A stretch of DNA of 64,000 nt from Methanolobus sp. WCC4 (GTDB taxonomy: Archaea > Halobacteriota > Methanosarcinia > Methanosarcinales > Methanosarcinaceae), in the NCBI RefSeq assembly GCF_038022665.1, contig NZ_CP150629.1, positions 1,470,480 through 1,534,479 of the forward strand, in the 5' to 3' direction. This document shows positions 55,081 through 61,137 of the stretch, piece by piece; the stretch's first letter is position 1, and the number at the start of each line of letters is the position of its first letter. A model generated the notes under the pieces. That model searched no databases and was not told where the DNA came from. It saw only the letters and a program-made list of their open reading frames with translations. Position numbers and translations under genes: made by a program.

Positions 55081-55344
55081 TCATATTTCTTCGACAACGA
55101 TCTCTTCTTCAAGCTCCATCTCATCGATGAGAGCTTCAAGTTCCGCAAGCTCAGCTTCCAGATCCTGCATCTCGGTGTCCGTTATACCCACCATTTCTTC
55201 ATTGAGTGCTTCATCGGCAACACTTATGTTCTGTGTGTCTCCGGTACCTGCAGTATCTTCTGTGGTATCTTTATCAGCACAACCCGAGATTACAAGAGCA
55301 AACAGCAGAACTGCAATGATGGCGATATTCCTAAATTTGGTCAT
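55081..55344 (-). CDS. Small acidic lipoprotein B' (module copy 1)
   Basis: An 87-residue exported protein. The signal segment ends in the lipobox VISGC, so Cys21-22 is lipidated. The rest is highly acidic and helical: EALNEEMVGITDTEMQDLEAELAELEALIDEMELEEEIVVEEI. It aligns well with the product at 58328-58606 over the whole length, including the block LNEEMVGITDTEIQDIEEELAE. It lies 28 bp behind the large secreted protein, forming a two-gene module. Coiled-coil-like acidic helices tethered to the membrane suggest an anchor or adaptor (inference). Confidence 0.85.
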   Translation of the reverse strand: MTKFRNIAIIAVLLFALVISGCADKDTTEDTAGTGDTQNISVADEALNEEMVGITDTEMQDLEAELAELEALIDEMELEEEIVVEEI

Positions 55345-55372
55345 TTCTTCTCAACTCCTATATCGTATCTCA

Positions 55373-57031
55373 TCATACAGTCAACTTAATGCTCTGTGTT
55401 ATTGAATCATTGTTCAGTTCATCGCTGTCAGATTCATATGCGGTCAGAGTGACGTTATATTCTTTATAAAGAGCATATTCATGTGTTGGAGATTGTTCTG
55501 TTGAGTAATTACCATCATCAAAATCCCAGTTCCATGAAGAAGCATTCATAGAGGTATCAGTAAACGTCACATTAAGACCATCAATAGTGTAAGTGAAATT
55601 TGCAACAACTGTTACACTATCTTCTTCATTCTCTGAATCTTCATCGTCATCATCATCGACTTCCTCTTCAGATTCGTCATTGTCATCTACTTCTTCTTCT
55701 TCTTCTTCTTCATCATCAGAGGAATCATCATCATCGACATAGCGGCTGGCCCATTCGCCTTCCTCACCATTGACCTCATAGGTGCCAATGCCTGCAAGCA
55801 CTGCAGTACCTGTTCCATTGACTGTGAGTTCGATGTCACTTCCTTTGACCATCACGGTAAGCCTGCTTCCTTCGATAAAGACCTCTTCAGTGAGATTTAT
55901 GAAAACGAATGCTCTGTTGTTATCCGTGCTGTTTCCTGAATCGATGTTCGATGTCTCATAGTTCGCCTTCGATAGATTGATGTCAGCATCCCCTGCAAGG
56001 TCCTTGATAACAAGTTTTGCATATTCATTGGCTTCTATCTCTATGGATACATTACCTGATATCACAGCAGTTCCGTTTCCTTCTGCTGCCAGTGTTCCAG
56101 TACCTGTAAGTACCACTACGCCCTCTCTTTCTTTCTTGAGCTCCTGAAGCATTTTCCTTAGAATGGCATTAGCGTCCTTGATGTCCTCACCCGCTTTAAC
56201 GATGTATCTGTTTGCTTCACGGATATTCTGTCCATTATTCCCATTCCCGTAGGTGTTTCTTGCATTAACCTGATTCTCTTTTGCATCATCTATGAGATCT
56301 TTGTACTCTTCAAGCATCTCTTCGAGGTCTTCTACATCTTCACCATTCTCTTTCATGGTAGTTATCTCATTCTCAAGGCGTACCACAAGTTTCTCAGATG
56401 TCTTGAGGACAGCATTGATCTTGTTATCGATAGCTTTACTGGAAGCTGTTACACGATTCTTGCGTGCATCGTTCCATATGTCCCTGATGTTCTTTGCAGA
56501 GTCTGCAAGTTCCTCTCTGGTAGTTGCTTTTTCAACATTGTCCCTTTCCTCTTCAAGAGCATCGATGTATTCATTGTCTTCATCGAGCAGAGATATCATG
56601 TAATCGATGGTGTCTATAAGGTATTCCTTGGTTGCATTGATAGCTTCTTCAGTGTCAAGTTTCGGGTTCTTTGATCTGATATCTGCAAATTTGATCTTTG
56701 CTGTCTGATAGTCTGATTCAGAATTCCTGCTTTCACTTCTTTTTCGGTTTGCATCTTCAGTGGCATTAAGCATGATCCTGTCTCTGTCACGTACCTGATC
56801 TGTAGTGGAATCATCTTCATCATCTGAAGACTCGTCAGAATCTTCTCCGTCATCACTGTCATCATCTTGATCACTATCAGCTACATTGTCATTTCCATTG
56901 TTTCCTCTTATGGTCTTTTCACCATAGTTCTTTGAGTTATCAGAGTCTGCAAGTGCTCCTGTAGGAAAGATGCTCATCAGCATCAACAGTACCACAAGGC
57001 ATGCAAATATCCTCATACCGTTTATTTTCAT
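55373..57031 (-). CDS. Secreted helical/beta protein with PKD domain, A' (module copy 1)
   Basis: A 552-residue secreted protein. Signal peptide residues 1-28 (cut after ALA). A long acidic stretch includes SDQDDDSDDGEDSDESSDDEDD, then DQVRDRDRI. Residues about 110-310 are helical and Lys/Glu-rich. A beta domain follows (GTGTLAAEGNGTAVISGNVSIEIEANEYAKLVIKDLAGDADINLS, then SNIDSGNSTDNNRAFVFINLTEEVFIEGSRLTVMVKGSDIELTVNGTGTAVLAGIGTYEVNG). After an Asp/Glu linker, a C-terminal PKD domain (WNWDFDDGNYSTEQSPTHEYALYKEYNVTLTAYE) ends it. The paralogue at 58675 lacks the acidic stretches and the PKD domain. Confidence 0.85.
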   Translation of the reverse strand: MKINGMRIFACLVVLLMLMSIFPTGALADSDNSKNYGEKTIRGNNGNDNVADSDQDDDSDDGEDSDESSDDEDDSTTDQVRDRDRIMLNATEDANRKRSESRNSESDYQTAKIKFADIRSKNPKLDTEEAINATKEYLIDTIDYMISLLDEDNEYIDALEEERDNVEKATTREELADSAKNIRDIWNDARKNRVTASSKAIDNKINAVLKTSEKLVVRLENEITTMKENGEDVEDLEEMLEEYKDLIDDAKENQVNARNTYGNGNNGQNIREANRYIVKAGEDIKDANAILRKMLQELKKEREGVVVLTGTGTLAAEGNGTAVISGNVSIEIEANEYAKLVIKDLAGDADINLSKANYETSNIDSGNSTDNNRAFVFINLTEEVFIEGSRLTVMVKGSDIELTVNGTGTAVLAGIGTYEVNGEEGEWASRYVDDDDSSDDEEEEEEEVDDNDESEEEVDDDDDEDSENEEDSVTVVANFTYTIDGLNVTFTDTSMNASSWNWDFDDGNYSTEQSPTHEYALYKEYNVTLTAYESDSDELNNDSITQSIKLTV

Positions 57032-57205
57032 TTTTACCCTCCGTTCTCTTTCTGTTTTTCGCTCATTTTCATTTTTTCTATTATTGAGTATTATATAAGA
57101 AATTGATAAAGATTATGATGTCCTTCTTTCAGGACCACAGATAAATAAATAGGAAGATCCGACCTGTCAGTCGAATCTATCTTTTTAGATACTCCCTGTC
57201 CGGTA

Positions 57206-57526
57206 TTAATCCTGACATGAGCCATCTCTTTGAGGCCCATCTCCGTCGCAGTCTCCATCTCCCTTACAGTTTGTTCCATCACAACTTCCATCACAATCTC
57301 CCTTACAGTTTGTTCCATCACAATCTCCATTACTGTTACCTGTGATCTCTGTTATGGAGCTATCGGCATTTATGCCTGCCCTTGTCTGATCCCTTGGTGC
57401 GAAATCCGGTACACCGGTACAATCTTCCTCTCTGTCTCTAACCTGGTCACAAGCCATTGCTGTTATGGTGAATATACTAAGCAACATTATAGTTACAGCT
57501 ACTAGTGTGAACACTCTTATTTTCAT
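57206..57526 (-). CDS. Small secreted Cys/Asp/Gly repeat protein
   Basis: A 106-residue exported protein. The hydrophobic signal (MKIRVFTLVAVTIMLLSIFT) ends at AMA, with Cys next (ACDQVRDREEDCTG). The mature start DQVRDRE is shared with the two large neighbours (DQVRDRDR, VQDRDR). The C-terminal half has the repeats DCDGTNCKGDCDGSCDGTNCK and nine cysteines overall, matching a 39-bp tandem repeat in DNA (57258-57323). Asp/Gly/Cys repeats suggest metal binding or disulfide cross-linking. The start has GGGAG. Its promoter copies that of the module at 58675. Confidence 0.75.
   Translation of the reverse strand: MKIRVFTLVAVTIMLLSIFTITAMACDQVRDREEDCTGVPDFAPRDQTRAGINADSSITEITGNSNGDCDGTNCKGDCDGSCDGTNCKGDGDCDGDGPQRDGSCQD
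57258..57323. repeat. Tandem repeat, period 39 bp, in coding sequence
   Basis: A 27-bp block (57258-57284) recurs identically at 57297-57323, giving 13-residue period Cys/Asp/Gly repeats in the small secreted protein. It suggests recent expansion by slippage or unequal exchange. Confidence 0.75.
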
Positions 57527-57561
57527 TTAATTCTCCCTCTGCGTTAATCTGTTTGAATAGT

Positions 57562-57620
57562 GTAAGTGTAAGTTTAAACGAGATAGCTTGGTGGTTAATC
57601 CGATACAAACCTACACTTAC
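57562..57620 (-). promoter_or_regulatory. 5' leader stem-loop, copy 1
   Basis: GTAAGTGTAAGTTT (57562-57575) pairs with AAACCTACACTTAC (57607-57620) at 13 of 14 positions around a 31-nt loop. The TATA-like CTTATAT (57641-57648, minus strand) predicts a start about 26 bp away, at the outer base of the stem. So the transcript of the small Cys protein probably begins with this hairpin. Confidence 0.6.
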
Positions 57621-57642
57621 AATCCTTCTTTCGTCGAGACAG

Positions 57643-57664
57643 ATATAAGCATACTTTACTTCAT
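57643..57664 (-). promoter_or_regulatory. Duplicated promoter block, copy 1
   Basis: 22 bp identical to 60156-60177, containing the minus-strand TATA-like CTTATAT. It lies about 120 bp upstream of the small secreted protein gene. Confidence 0.6.
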
Positions 57665-57927
57665 AGATACTTTAAGTCTGAATCCATGTAAAAAGAAGGC
57701 TTATAATGGTTTATTTTACTTTATGATCCTTCATCATGCTTCAGATATGTCTTTGAACTTGTGGGCGAAAGTTGTTTTTTCCTTCGTGTACTGAACAAAA
57801 ATATAGCTTTGTTCAATATGGTGCATTATCCATAGTGTAATATGTGCTGACAATCCAACCTTTGAAAAGATAAGTTCTTTACTAAGCTGCAGGAGTGGGA
57901 TCTCATGACATTGGGTTATGTTTATTC

Positions 57928-58114
57928 GACTCTGTTGAAATCCTGCTGATCATGAGTTTTGAATCACAACCGCAGATCAACACAGATACATCTATCTACA
58001 TCGAGTTGGATGCCTGCTGAAATTTCAGCAGGCCATAAAGATAGCGTTCATCTATATCTTCGTACATCTGCATGCATCTGTGGATCTATAGCTATAAGAG
58101 ATTTCTACAGAGCC
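57928..58114 (+). mobile_element. MITE-like hairpin repeat between module copies
   Basis: Left end GACTCTGTTGAAATCCTG, right end GATTTCTACAGAGCC. Internal hairpin CCTGCTGAA-AT-TTCAGCAGG (58013-58032) and an upstream part AACACAGATACATCTATCTA in the same order as 13855-14047. Flanks GTTTATTC and TTTCCTTC match at only 5 of 8 positions, so a target duplication is not clear. Confidence 0.75.
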
Positions 58115-58327
58115 TTTCCTTCAATAAAGACCTAAGACAATGTTCTTTCACTTAATGATCATGATTTGCTGTATGGAAGCAATTCATGTGGAGTAACAGC
58201 TACGGAGTAACAGCTAGGGTGGATGACGGCGTCTAACATCGATAATGATCTTCAGGGTAAAATAGTAAAATTCTCAGTTAGTAGATACTAAAAAGGTAAA
58301 AGAAGGGGAAACATGAATGATGATCAT

Positions 58328-58606
58328 TCATATTTCTTCGACCACAATATCACTTTCAATATCCGTTCCATTTGTTTCGTTGATCAGTGTCTCTATCTCT
58401 GCAAGTTCTTCTTCAATATCCTGTATCTCGGTGTCTGTGATACCTACCATTTCCTCATTTAATGTTTCTTCTGCAAGGGATGTATCAACATCTTCAATAT
58501 CTTCTGAAGCTTTCTGGTCTTCCGTAGATGCATTGTCCGCACAACCGGATACTATAAGTCCAAGGAACAGAACTGCCATTATTACAAGGTATTTCGTCTT
58601 TACCAT
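58328..58606 (-). CDS. Small acidic lipoprotein B (module copy 2)
   Basis: A 92-residue paralogue of the product at 55081-55344. The signal segment (VKTKYLVIMAVLFLGLIVSGC) has a lipobox. The mature part is acidic and contains TLNEEMVGITDTEIQDIEEELAEIETLI, close to LNEEMVGITDTEMQDLEAELAELEALI of the paralogue. Start 58606 aligns with the paralogue's start; ATG 58612 (two codons upstream, with AGGAG four bases before) is an alternative. It lies 68 bp behind the large module protein at 58675. Confidence 0.85.
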   Translation of the reverse strand: MVKTKYLVIMAVLFLGLIVSGCADNASTEDQKASEDIEDVDTSLAEETLNEEMVGITDTEIQDIEEELAEIETLINETNGTDIESDIVVEEI

Positions 58607-58674
58607 GTACATTCATCTCCTATTATCACTTATATTGTCATTTTATATGATGATGTTCACTGTTGTGTGCTGTC

Positions 58675-59835
58675 CTATTCTTCAACATCTTCAGTATCAT
58701 TTGCTTCAGGTGCAGCCCATTCCTTCTCTACACCTTCCACTTCATAGGTGCCTTCTCCCGTGAGTACGACGTTTCCGCTTCCTTCAGCATCAAGGGATAT
58801 GTCTGTTCCACGCAGTGTGACGATAAGGCGGCTCCCTTCTATCATTACATCTCCTGTGAGGTTGTGATATACATATGCCCTGTTGTCCACATCACTGTTA
58901 CCTGCATCGATGTTCGAATATCCATATGTGGCATCCCCTGTGTCCACTTCTGCATCTCCTGCCATATCCTTGATGACAAGTGTGGCATTGTCTGCAGTGA
59001 AGCTCATTGTGACATCGCCGGAAAGGACAACAACTCCGTTACCTTCAGCCGACAGTGCTCCCTCTCCAGTGAGCGTTACAAGTCCTTCGCGGTATTGCTT
59101 GAGTTCCACCAGCATCTCTTCAAGCACACCATTTGCCTGTCTGATGCTCATGCCAGCCTGCCTCATATTCTGAACAGATCGCATCTGTCCCTGTACGTTT
59201 CCGTAACCTGCCTGTTTCTGATACTGCTCTGCTTCGGCAATATGGGCATTATATTGTTCAAGAAGTCCTTCAAGTTCGGTTACATCTTCACCTCTGGCTT
59301 CCATACGCATGATCTCGTTCTCAAGGCGAAGTGCCATTGCCTGGGATGTCCTTATGACCGCAGTCATCTTGTTGTTGACAGAATTGGCTGCTGAAGCAGC
59401 TTTTTCTTCACGTGCCTCTCTCCAGATCTCCCTGACTTCCCGGGCTGCTTCAGCAAGTTCCGCTCTTGTGGTTGCTTCAGCTACATCATCCTTTATAGCG
59501 GTCAGTTCCTCTGTATATTCTTCATTTTCAAGGGTATCTATCATTATGTCAATGGTACTGTTCAGATATTCCTTCGCAGCTTCCATCGCCTCTTCTGTAT
59601 TAAGGGCAGAATTGTTTGCTTTGATACGCAGGAAGTTCTCTGTTGCTTCTCCGTATCTCTCCCTGACAGTCATATTCTGTCTGAACTGTTCCATGGTAGT
59701 AGCATTTATCCTGTCTCTGTCCTGTACCCTTTCCTGCAGGCCATCTGACCCGGCGATCGCTGATGCCGGAACAATACTTGTCAGCATCATCATAATGGCA
59801 AAGCATAGAAATATCTTCATTATCTTGTTTTTCAT
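58675..59835 (-). CDS. Secreted helical/beta protein A (module copy 2)
   Basis: A 386-residue exported protein. Signal peptide (MKIFLCFAIMMMLTSIVPASA, cut near residue 27). Residues about 30-270 are helical and charged (RVQDRDRINATTMEQFRQ; IKANNSALNTEEAMEAAKEYLNSTIDIMIDTLENEEY; AAREVREIWREAREEKAASAANSVNNKMTAVIRTSQAMALRLENEIMRME). A beta domain follows (LTGEGALSAEGNGVVVLSGDVTMSF; LVIKDMAGDAEVDTGDATYGYSNIDAGNSDVDNRAYVYHNLTGDVMIEGSRL). It ends EWAAPEANDTEDVEE. It shares both domains with the protein at 55373 but is shorter. No known family. The leader of the gene carries two stem-loops. Confidence 0.85.
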   Translation of the reverse strand: MKNKIMKIFLCFAIMMMLTSIVPASAIAGSDGLQERVQDRDRINATTMEQFRQNMTVRERYGEATENFLRIKANNSALNTEEAMEAAKEYLNSTIDIMIDTLENEEYTEELTAIKDDVAEATTRAELAEAAREVREIWREAREEKAASAANSVNNKMTAVIRTSQAMALRLENEIMRMEARGEDVTELEGLLEQYNAHIAEAEQYQKQAGYGNVQGQMRSVQNMRQAGMSIRQANGVLEEMLVELKQYREGLVTLTGEGALSAEGNGVVVLSGDVTMSFTADNATLVIKDMAGDAEVDTGDATYGYSNIDAGNSDVDNRAYVYHNLTGDVMIEGSRLIVTLRGTDISLDAEGSGNVVLTGEGTYEVEGVEKEWAAPEANDTEDVEE

Positions 59836-59948
59836 ATTGTTCTCTCCAGTTCTCTATGTACTTTCTTTAATTAATTCAATTTTTCAATGTTATGTGTGAA
59901 CAAAAGTATAATGTTCCTTTTATGTGCTTGAATAAGTAGGTGATAGTA

Positions 59949-59973
59949 GGATTCGGCAGATATTGCCGAATCC
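59949..59973 (-). promoter_or_regulatory. Second leader hairpin of module protein A
   Basis: GGATTCGGCA (59949-59958) and TGCCGAATCC (59964-59973) form a perfect 10-bp stem with a 5-nt loop, 114 bp upstream of the start codon, inside the predicted 5' leader. No T tract follows on either strand, so it is not a standard terminator. Confidence 0.5.
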
Positions 59974-60072
59974 CTGTTTCATATCTGTTCCCTCTTATCC
60001 CGGACATGAAACTCGTTTTTTTTTGGATTGTCTCCATTACCACCCCTACATGCCAGTTGCTGGCTCATAGGT

Positions 60073-60132
60073 GTAAGCGCAGGTTTGGATGGGATGACCA
60101 GGTAGTACATCCGATCATGGCCAGTGGCTTAC
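60073..60132 (-). promoter_or_regulatory. 5' leader inverted repeat, copy 2
   Basis: GTAAGC (60073-60078) pairs with GCTTAC (60127-60132), and GGATG (60087-60091) with CATCC (60108-60112). The position matches the stem at 57562-57620 of the duplicated leader. The innermost pair of the outer stem has changed from T-A to C-G, a compensatory change. The predicted start falls at the outer base of the stem. Confidence 0.5.
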
Positions 60133-60155
60133 AATTCCATCTTTTGCAGAACTGA

Positions 60156-60177
60156 ATATAAGCATACTTTACTTCAT
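60156..60177 (-). promoter_or_regulatory. Duplicated promoter block, copy 2
   Basis: Identical over 22 bp to 57643-57664, with the minus-strand TATA-like CTTATAT. It lies about 320 bp upstream of the module protein A start, implying a leader of about 297 nt. Confidence 0.6.
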
Positions 60178-60300
60178 ATGGACTTCAGGAATTGTCTGGT
60201 ACTAAAAAAAGGCTTAAAAATGGTTATTTTACTTGATAGGACTTTATAATACTTCAGATGGAGTAACTTTCATATTTAGTTCCCAGTAACAATTATATGG

Positions 60301-61137
60301 GTGTACTATGTAAATATACATCCTGTGTTAAAGAATAAGATCATCCTGCTATGTTCTATTAGCATATTCCTACTTGCATGTGTGCCACTATCAAATGCCA
60401 CAGAAGTGGCAACTATCCATGGCGCAGTATATGAATGGGATTCCTTTGAACCTCTTGAGAACGTTATCGTAGATGTTGATTCAACACCACCCCAGTCCAT
60501 GCTTGCAAAATATGGTCTTTATTCCTTTGATCTTGTACCGGGCAATTACACTATACTGGCCAGCTATTACCGGGGCAATGACCTTGTAGCTTATGCAGAG
60601 GAAGAGGTCACTATCACAGACGATGGTGATTACGTTATGGATCTTATCCTGCTCCCGGTTTATTATGATACTTCCTTCAATGAGAGCGAGTTTGCAGAAC
60701 TCGATGAGATCGCCAGTTTTTCAGAGGAAGGAGGGGACAGTGCATCTTTATCTACAGGTACGATGCTGGTCATTCTCATTATTGTGGTTGTGCTCATTGC
60801 AGGTGCGTACTATATTGTCAAGCAGCGTAATTCAGGATCATCACCTGATGATGGTGATCATGTGCAGGATGCTGATACTGAGATGATGATGTCAGGAGAT
60901 AAATGGGATGATCTGCCTGAGGATCTTCGTCAGGTCGTGGGTATCATTGAAAGGAATGATGGTCGTATCACCCAGAAGGACCTGCGTACAAAGGTAAAGC
61001 ACTCAGAGGCGAAGGTCAGCCTTATGATATCGGACCTTGAAAGCCGTGGCATTGTCCGAAAATTCAAGAAGGGACGTGGGAATGTTATCATTCTTGAAGA
61101 TACTGCTGATACGGACGAACCAAACCAAAATATATAA
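60301..61137 (+). CDS. Membrane-anchored winged-helix protein with extracellular beta domain
   Basis: A 278-residue one-component-sensor-like protein. Signal/anchor helix residues about 13-32 (IILLCSISIFLLACVPLSNA). Then an extracellular carboxypeptidase-regulatory-like domain (GAVYEWDSFEPLENVIVDVD ... YGLYSFDLVPGNYTILASYYRG), a transmembrane helix about 151-171 (GTMLVILIIVVVLIAGAYYIV), and a cytoplasmic winged helix (LPEDLRQVVGIIERNDGRITQKDLRTKVKHSEAKVSLMISDLESRGIVRKFKKGRGNVIIL). The GTG start at 60301 has no strong ribosome site. Divergent from the secreted module and sharing its intergenic region, it is a good candidate regulator (inference). Confidence 0.85.
   Translation: MYYVNIHPVLKNKIILLCSISIFLLACVPLSNATEVATIHGAVYEWDSFEPLENVIVDVDSTPPQSMLAKYGLYSFDLVPGNYTILASYYRGNDLVAYAEEEVTITDDGDYVMDLILLPVYYDTSFNESEFAELDEIASFSEEGGDSASLSTGTMLVILIIVVVLIAGAYYIVKQRNSGSSPDDGDHVQDADTEMMMSGDKWDDLPEDLRQVVGIIERNDGRITQKDLRTKVKHSEAKVSLMISDLESRGIVRKFKKGRGNVIILEDTADTDEPNQNI

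Follow-up and report, generated by a model that had tools for sequence, protein, structure and literature searches.

A duplicated promoter and a covarying leader hairpin upstream of surface-protein genes in Methanolobus

The hairpin described here lies at the predicted start of transcripts from a duplicated promoter in Methanolobus sp. WCC4 and is very probably a real RNA element. The two promoter copies lie on the minus strand of the analysed window (the whole stretch of DNA, 64,000 nucleotides of contig NZ_CP150629.1) and precede two neighbouring surface-protein genes, encoding a small Cys protein and module protein A. The stem covaries among relatives and holds a constant position behind the promoter, and its loop carries a motif found in two genera. 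The element most likely protects or tunes these messages. The genes and promoter features are the following.

57206..57526, minus strand: small Cys-rich secreted protein, first gene behind copy 1 (ORF; homologues in the same place in relatives)
55373..57031, minus strand: module protein A homologue with a PKD domain, behind the Cys gene (ORF; relatives)
58675..59835, minus strand: module protein A, the gene behind copy 2 (ORF; relatives)
60301..61137, plus strand: divergent membrane-bound DUF7343 winged-helix regulator (Pfam PF24034, E 1.1e-17; synteny)
57643..57664, minus strand: copy 1 promoter block ATGAAGTAAAGTATGCTTATAT (BRE/TATA), identical to copy 2, its core kept in 25/27 Methanolobus genomes
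60156..60177, minus strand: copy 2 promoter block ATGAAGTAAAGTATGCTTATAT, 22 bp, identical to copy 1
57711..57724, minus strand: copy 1 upstream AAGTAAAATAA box (alignment with copy 2 and relatives)
60225..60238, minus strand: copy 2 upstream AAGTAAAATAA box (alignment with copy 1; own-genome box search)

Protein A and a lipoprotein form a module that is present here as a tandem duplicate (55081-57031 and 58328-59835). At most of the Methanolobus loci examined, the gene order is a conserved gene, the divergent DUF7343 regulator, the promoter, an optional Cys gene, protein A and a small lipoprotein, and an M48 (HtpX-type) protease often follows the lipoprotein where the fetched stretch reaches far enough. 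The comparison set comprised 26 further genomes of the genus; named protein A homologues are those of M. profundi, M. vulcani and M. halotolerans. Four genomes (WCC4, G004, G017 and G023) contain the module twice and therefore two promoters. The product of the DUF7343 gene (60301-61137) is membrane-anchored, has a weak carboxypeptidase-regulatory-like match and is encoded divergently from the module across the genus. This winged-helix protein is a candidate envelope sensor and possibly a regulator of the promoter. The Cys protein (57206-57526) and the module protein A homologue (55373-57031) have a DQVRDR segment in common, so the former may descend from the N-terminal part of module protein A.

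The earlier note on this DNA had described the regions upstream of the two genes as homologous, which agrees with their 73% identity over 137 nt (BLAST E 5e-15), and the identity of the 22-bp block was confirmed letter by letter (57664-57643 = 60177-60156, minus strand). An own-genome search with copy 1 as query retrieved copy 2 (E 2.6e-11), and a third promoter copy was found 23 kb away in front of an S-layer gene, whose product matches PF07752 and TIGR01567. Judged from the sequences, the homology of copies 1 and 2 is a promoter duplication that also includes this third site. The core AAGTAAAGTATGCTTATAT, searched in the 27 Methanolobus genomes with ≤2 mismatches allowed, occurs 1–3 times per genome in 25 of them, mostly at the same locus, and the reversed core pattern used as a control gave few matches. 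In the WCC4 genome, the upstream box TAAAGTWTTATCAAGTAAAATA (≤3 mismatches) was retrieved only at the S-layer promoter and copy 2, its copy 1 form being more diverged. Predicted leaders are ~95 nt for copy 1 and ~298 nt for copy 2, within a nucleotide of the ~94 and ~297 nt claimed before. Among 25 major Methanolobus S-layer loci, the block was detected only in WCC4 and in G004 and was not found at the other 23.

In both copies, an inverted repeat starts 21–23 nt after the block, at the predicted transcription start.

57607..57621, minus strand: copy 1 hairpin 5' arm TGTAAGTGTAGGTTT, at the predicted transcription start (15 pairs with 57561-57575; p 0.003)
57561..57575, minus strand: copy 1 hairpin 3' arm AAACTTACACTTACA (pairs with 57621-57607; covariation in relatives)
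57590..57595, minus strand: copy 1 loop motif ACCACC (ACYACC in 12/14 Cys-type leaders)
60127..60133, minus strand: copy 2 hairpin 5' arm TGTAAGC (7 pairs with 60072-60078)
60072..60078, minus strand: copy 2 hairpin 3' arm GCTTACA (pairs with 60133-60127)
60101..60106, minus strand: copy 2 loop motif ACTACC (motif survey of leaders)

The inverted repeat reported for copy 1 is present, although its count of 13 of 14 paired positions has to be corrected: all 15 positions form standard pairs, of which 14 are Watson-Crick and one is G-U. Copy 2 has 7 pairs in total: the outer six are those of copy 1 and the seventh has changed from T-A to C-G, as previously noted. Judged by itself against dinucleotide shuffles, the stem of copy 1 exceeds chance (p 0.003) and that of copy 2 does not (p 0.12), so the case for the hairpin rests on the relatives; the start of the copy 2 leader as a whole folds at z = -3.0. 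A U tract of the terminator or attenuator type was found neither after the copy 1 hairpin (CUAUUCAAACAG) nor after that of copy 2 (CCUAUGAGCCAG). Rfam returned three matches for window positions 57000-60500, all far below the gathering score and outside the leaders.

The copy 2 leader has a long additional stretch, and within it a perfect inverted repeat, GGATTCGGCA-GATAT-TGCCGAATCC, lies at 59949-59973. The leader of the orthologous gene at locus L010 is much shorter. The insertion was considered as a genomic repeat, an idea that was rejected since the stretch is unique in the genome.

The hairpin was found in most relatives. Its 5' arm starts 20–23 nt after the end of the block in nearly all leaders. 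The position of the 3' arm varies, with an arm spacing of 30–100 bp centre-to-centre that covers all helical phases, and pairing is kept. When whole hairpins were aligned with MAFFT, leaders with short loops had their 3' arms misplaced, and the arms were therefore cut by hand and aligned alone. In this arms-only alignment of 15 leaders, 85.8% of the cells of a 16-pair stem are paired and 8 of the 16 pairs show double-sided changes; choosing arms by complementarity inflates the former value and the latter less so, and hand-cut arms lean towards structure, against which slid and shuffled controls guard only in part. Double-change cells numbered 23, vs 7.7 in shuffles, and none of 500 shuffles reached the covariation score. 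Slid registers were 21–46% paired, with at most 4 pairs and 5 cells doubly changed. The covariation in relatives on which the earlier note had staked its hairpin is thus present, and these values (8/16 pairs, 23 cells vs 7.7) indicate pairing under selection for this stem.

Stem significance pooled over 32 leaders was 1e-21, a value that overstates the evidence because the leaders are related; individually, 15 of the 32 had p < 0.01. When the first 14 nt were fixed and the rest shuffled, pairing exceeded expectation for Cys-type leaders (2e-6), A-type leaders (6e-4) and genus g8 (1e-3), combined values that are likewise overstated by relatedness. Folding z was below -2 in 12 of the 14 Cys-type leaders and, less strikingly, in 6 of the 15 A-type leaders. 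G-U mismatches outnumber A-C mismatches (26 vs 10 cells; 8 vs 6 distinct column states), so the excess expected for RNA pairing is present but weak.

The hairpin does not accompany every copy of the promoter. It is weak or absent at the A gene of one duplicate in G023 and in genus g4, where no first-nucleotide pairing was found, and the S-layer gene of WCC4 itself (L003, G000:C1:1553548) has the shared promoter with no clear +1 hairpin. Block and hairpin are both present at the G004 S-layer gene (L065). In genus g8, the same promoter and hairpin precede a similar secreted protein in which DADGDG motifs are repeated; the arms differ in sequence with pairing kept (AGGTTCAGGC / GCCAGAACCT; in another genome, AGGGTTCAGGC / GCTTGGACCCT), and three of six leaders have an ACCACC loop. 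The genes behind this promoter in genus g3 encode a protein A relative and an ABC transporter. The g3 hairpins are suggestive only, pairing of the first nucleotides being no better than shuffles for the group (p 0.55). Three g3 transporter leaders with this promoter type (L121, L124 and L136) contain CUACCAC, GGUGGUAG and CUACCACC arms, which on sequence grounds can form mutually exclusive, switch-like hairpins.

We tentatively read the element, at somewhat less than an even chance, as a stem that protects the 5' ends of mRNAs for secreted and surface proteins. In M. psychrophilus, the BRE/TATA lies ~19–22 nt from the mapped TSS (PMC5378194), a matching distance that would place the start of the stem at or near +1. 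A strong archaeal promoter was duplicated together with its gene module, and transcription is predicted to start ~22 nt after the TATA block. The first mRNA nucleotides, UUGYAAG..., would pair with a downstream segment, closing the 5' end into a stem at or within 1–3 nt of +1. This stem would shield the 5' end from 5'-3' decay and thereby prolong the life of messages for secreted or surface proteins. A protein or small RNA would probably dock at the ACYACC loop and modulate the protection. The WCC4 genome encodes an RNase J-family enzyme (483 bits, over the cut-off). Given such an enzyme, a stem that would close the 5' end and the secreted or surface nature of the genes, 5'-end protection is the simplest reading.

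The conserved loop motif exceeds the needs of a plain protective stem, which counts against protection, and its conservation suggests a further partner. Of the 14 Cys-type leaders, 12 carry ACYACC, as do copy 2 and three of the six g8 leaders (2–6% would be expected), its first copy lying 40–49 nt after the block. Seven leaders were read as having two units, and RNAalifold folds them into two inner helices enclosed by a long outer stem. When a covariance model built on these seven was run against 27 genomes, it recovered only its seven source loci; the model is specific to one clade and misses copy 1. The frequency of the motif, its doubling and its repetition in the g3 transporter leaders together with the complementary GGUGGUAG all speak for a leader that is mainly a regulatory binding site, in which the stem is a scaffold presenting ACYACC loops to an RNA-binding protein or small RNA, translation or decay is turned up or down, and 5'-end protection is secondary. 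We nevertheless judge this rather unlikely, as almost no A-type leader that keeps the hairpin has the motif, a trans partner is only presumed, and an in-leader GGUGGU partner to the loop occurs in copy 2 alone among Methanolobus leaders.

In copy 2, GGTGGTAA (minus strand, 60037-60044) could pair with the leader's own ACTACC loop, a possible pseudoknot that is absent from the other ACYACC-carrying Methanolobus leaders. Pairing of the loop with an in-leader GGUGGU partner was also considered as a general feature and set aside, being plausible only in copy 2 and genus g3.

A broader proposal, which we consider unlikely, is that these leaders form a family of archaeal leader RNAs not described before, spanning Methanolobus and related genera and defined by a +1 hairpin with one or two ACYACC loops; by binding these loops, a common partner would coordinate how messages for secreted envelope and S-layer-associated proteins are degraded or translated.

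An inverted repeat over the transcription start could also be a DNA operator to which a repressor binds, for example the product of the divergent DUF7343 gene, which adjoins the promoter across the genus. The fairly constant distance between ACYACC and the block (40–49 nt) would suit such a site, as would the near-equal column states of G-U and A-C mismatches (8 vs 6). However, half-sites are expected at constant or phased spacing and the arms stand 30–100 bp apart in all helical phases, their sequences change together between species, and the regulator gene lies beside neither copy 1 nor the S-layer copy. With spacing variable and unphased and the changes matched, an operator is less likely than RNA pairing; the G-U vs A-C comparison does not decide the matter, and we hold the operator to be quite improbable.

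Control of ribosome access, by masking or as a thermometer, in which the hairpin would compete with base pairing around the start codon, appears more doubtful still. Masking of the ribosome site by a leader stem-loop has been proposed in M. psychrophilus (PMC5378194), and g3 leaders have the hairpin directly before the ribosome site. Masking does not fit copy 1, whose ribosome-site region is outside the stem and, over most of its extent, predicted to be largely unpaired; the length from hairpin to start codon runs from ~20 to >200 nt. That the hairpin is a functionless by-product of sequence conservation in the promoter and start region, as the hairpin-less copies and the conserved 5' arm within the promoter region might suggest, is hardly credible, since the 3' arm, which the promoter does not need, stays complementary at changing distances, with 8 of 16 pairs double-changed.

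To our knowledge, few archaeal 5' leader structures have comparative support. The leaders of E. coli ompA and Bacillus aprE are bacterial stabilising stem-loops at or near the mRNA 5' end, on messages for envelope or secreted products. The Methanolobus stem, predicted to lie at or within a few nt of the 5' end, would resemble them in position and does so in the envelope or secreted products, but it belongs to an archaeal mRNA and promoter and has a conserved ACYACC loop, and its stabilising role would be an extension by analogy. Lactobacillus S-layer genes likewise have structured leaders, thought to be stabilising, on an abundant surface-protein mRNA, but the Methanolobus sequence, promoter and domain of life are unrelated.

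Closer relatives offer two further comparisons. The S-layer genes slmA1 of Methanosarcina (MA0829 / Mbar_A1758) have a conserved TATA and an untranslated leader of 154–159 nt, for which secondary structures have been predicted; the role of these structures was described as unknown (PMC3361143). They share with the present element a related methanogen host, a surface protein, a conserved TATA and a structured leader. In contrast to the Methanolobus stem, we found no covariation reported there (PMC3361143), and the Methanolobus promoter and hairpin mainly serve another locus, the block being present at only two Methanolobus S-layer genes. Long 5' UTRs with structured leaders have been mapped by dRNA-seq in M. 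psychrophilus (PMC5378194), in the same genus and with a BRE/TATA-to-TSS distance of ~19–22 nt. That study proposes ribosome-site masking and alternative starts, not the present element (PMC5378194). We found no paper describing this Methanolobus hairpin among the open-licence papers searched, and Rfam held no match. Earlier work did not settle what structured leaders do on archaeal surface-layer mRNAs (PMC3361143). Because the position of the element described here is defined, its stem covaries and its loop motif is conserved, 5'-end protection by structure in archaea becomes directly testable.
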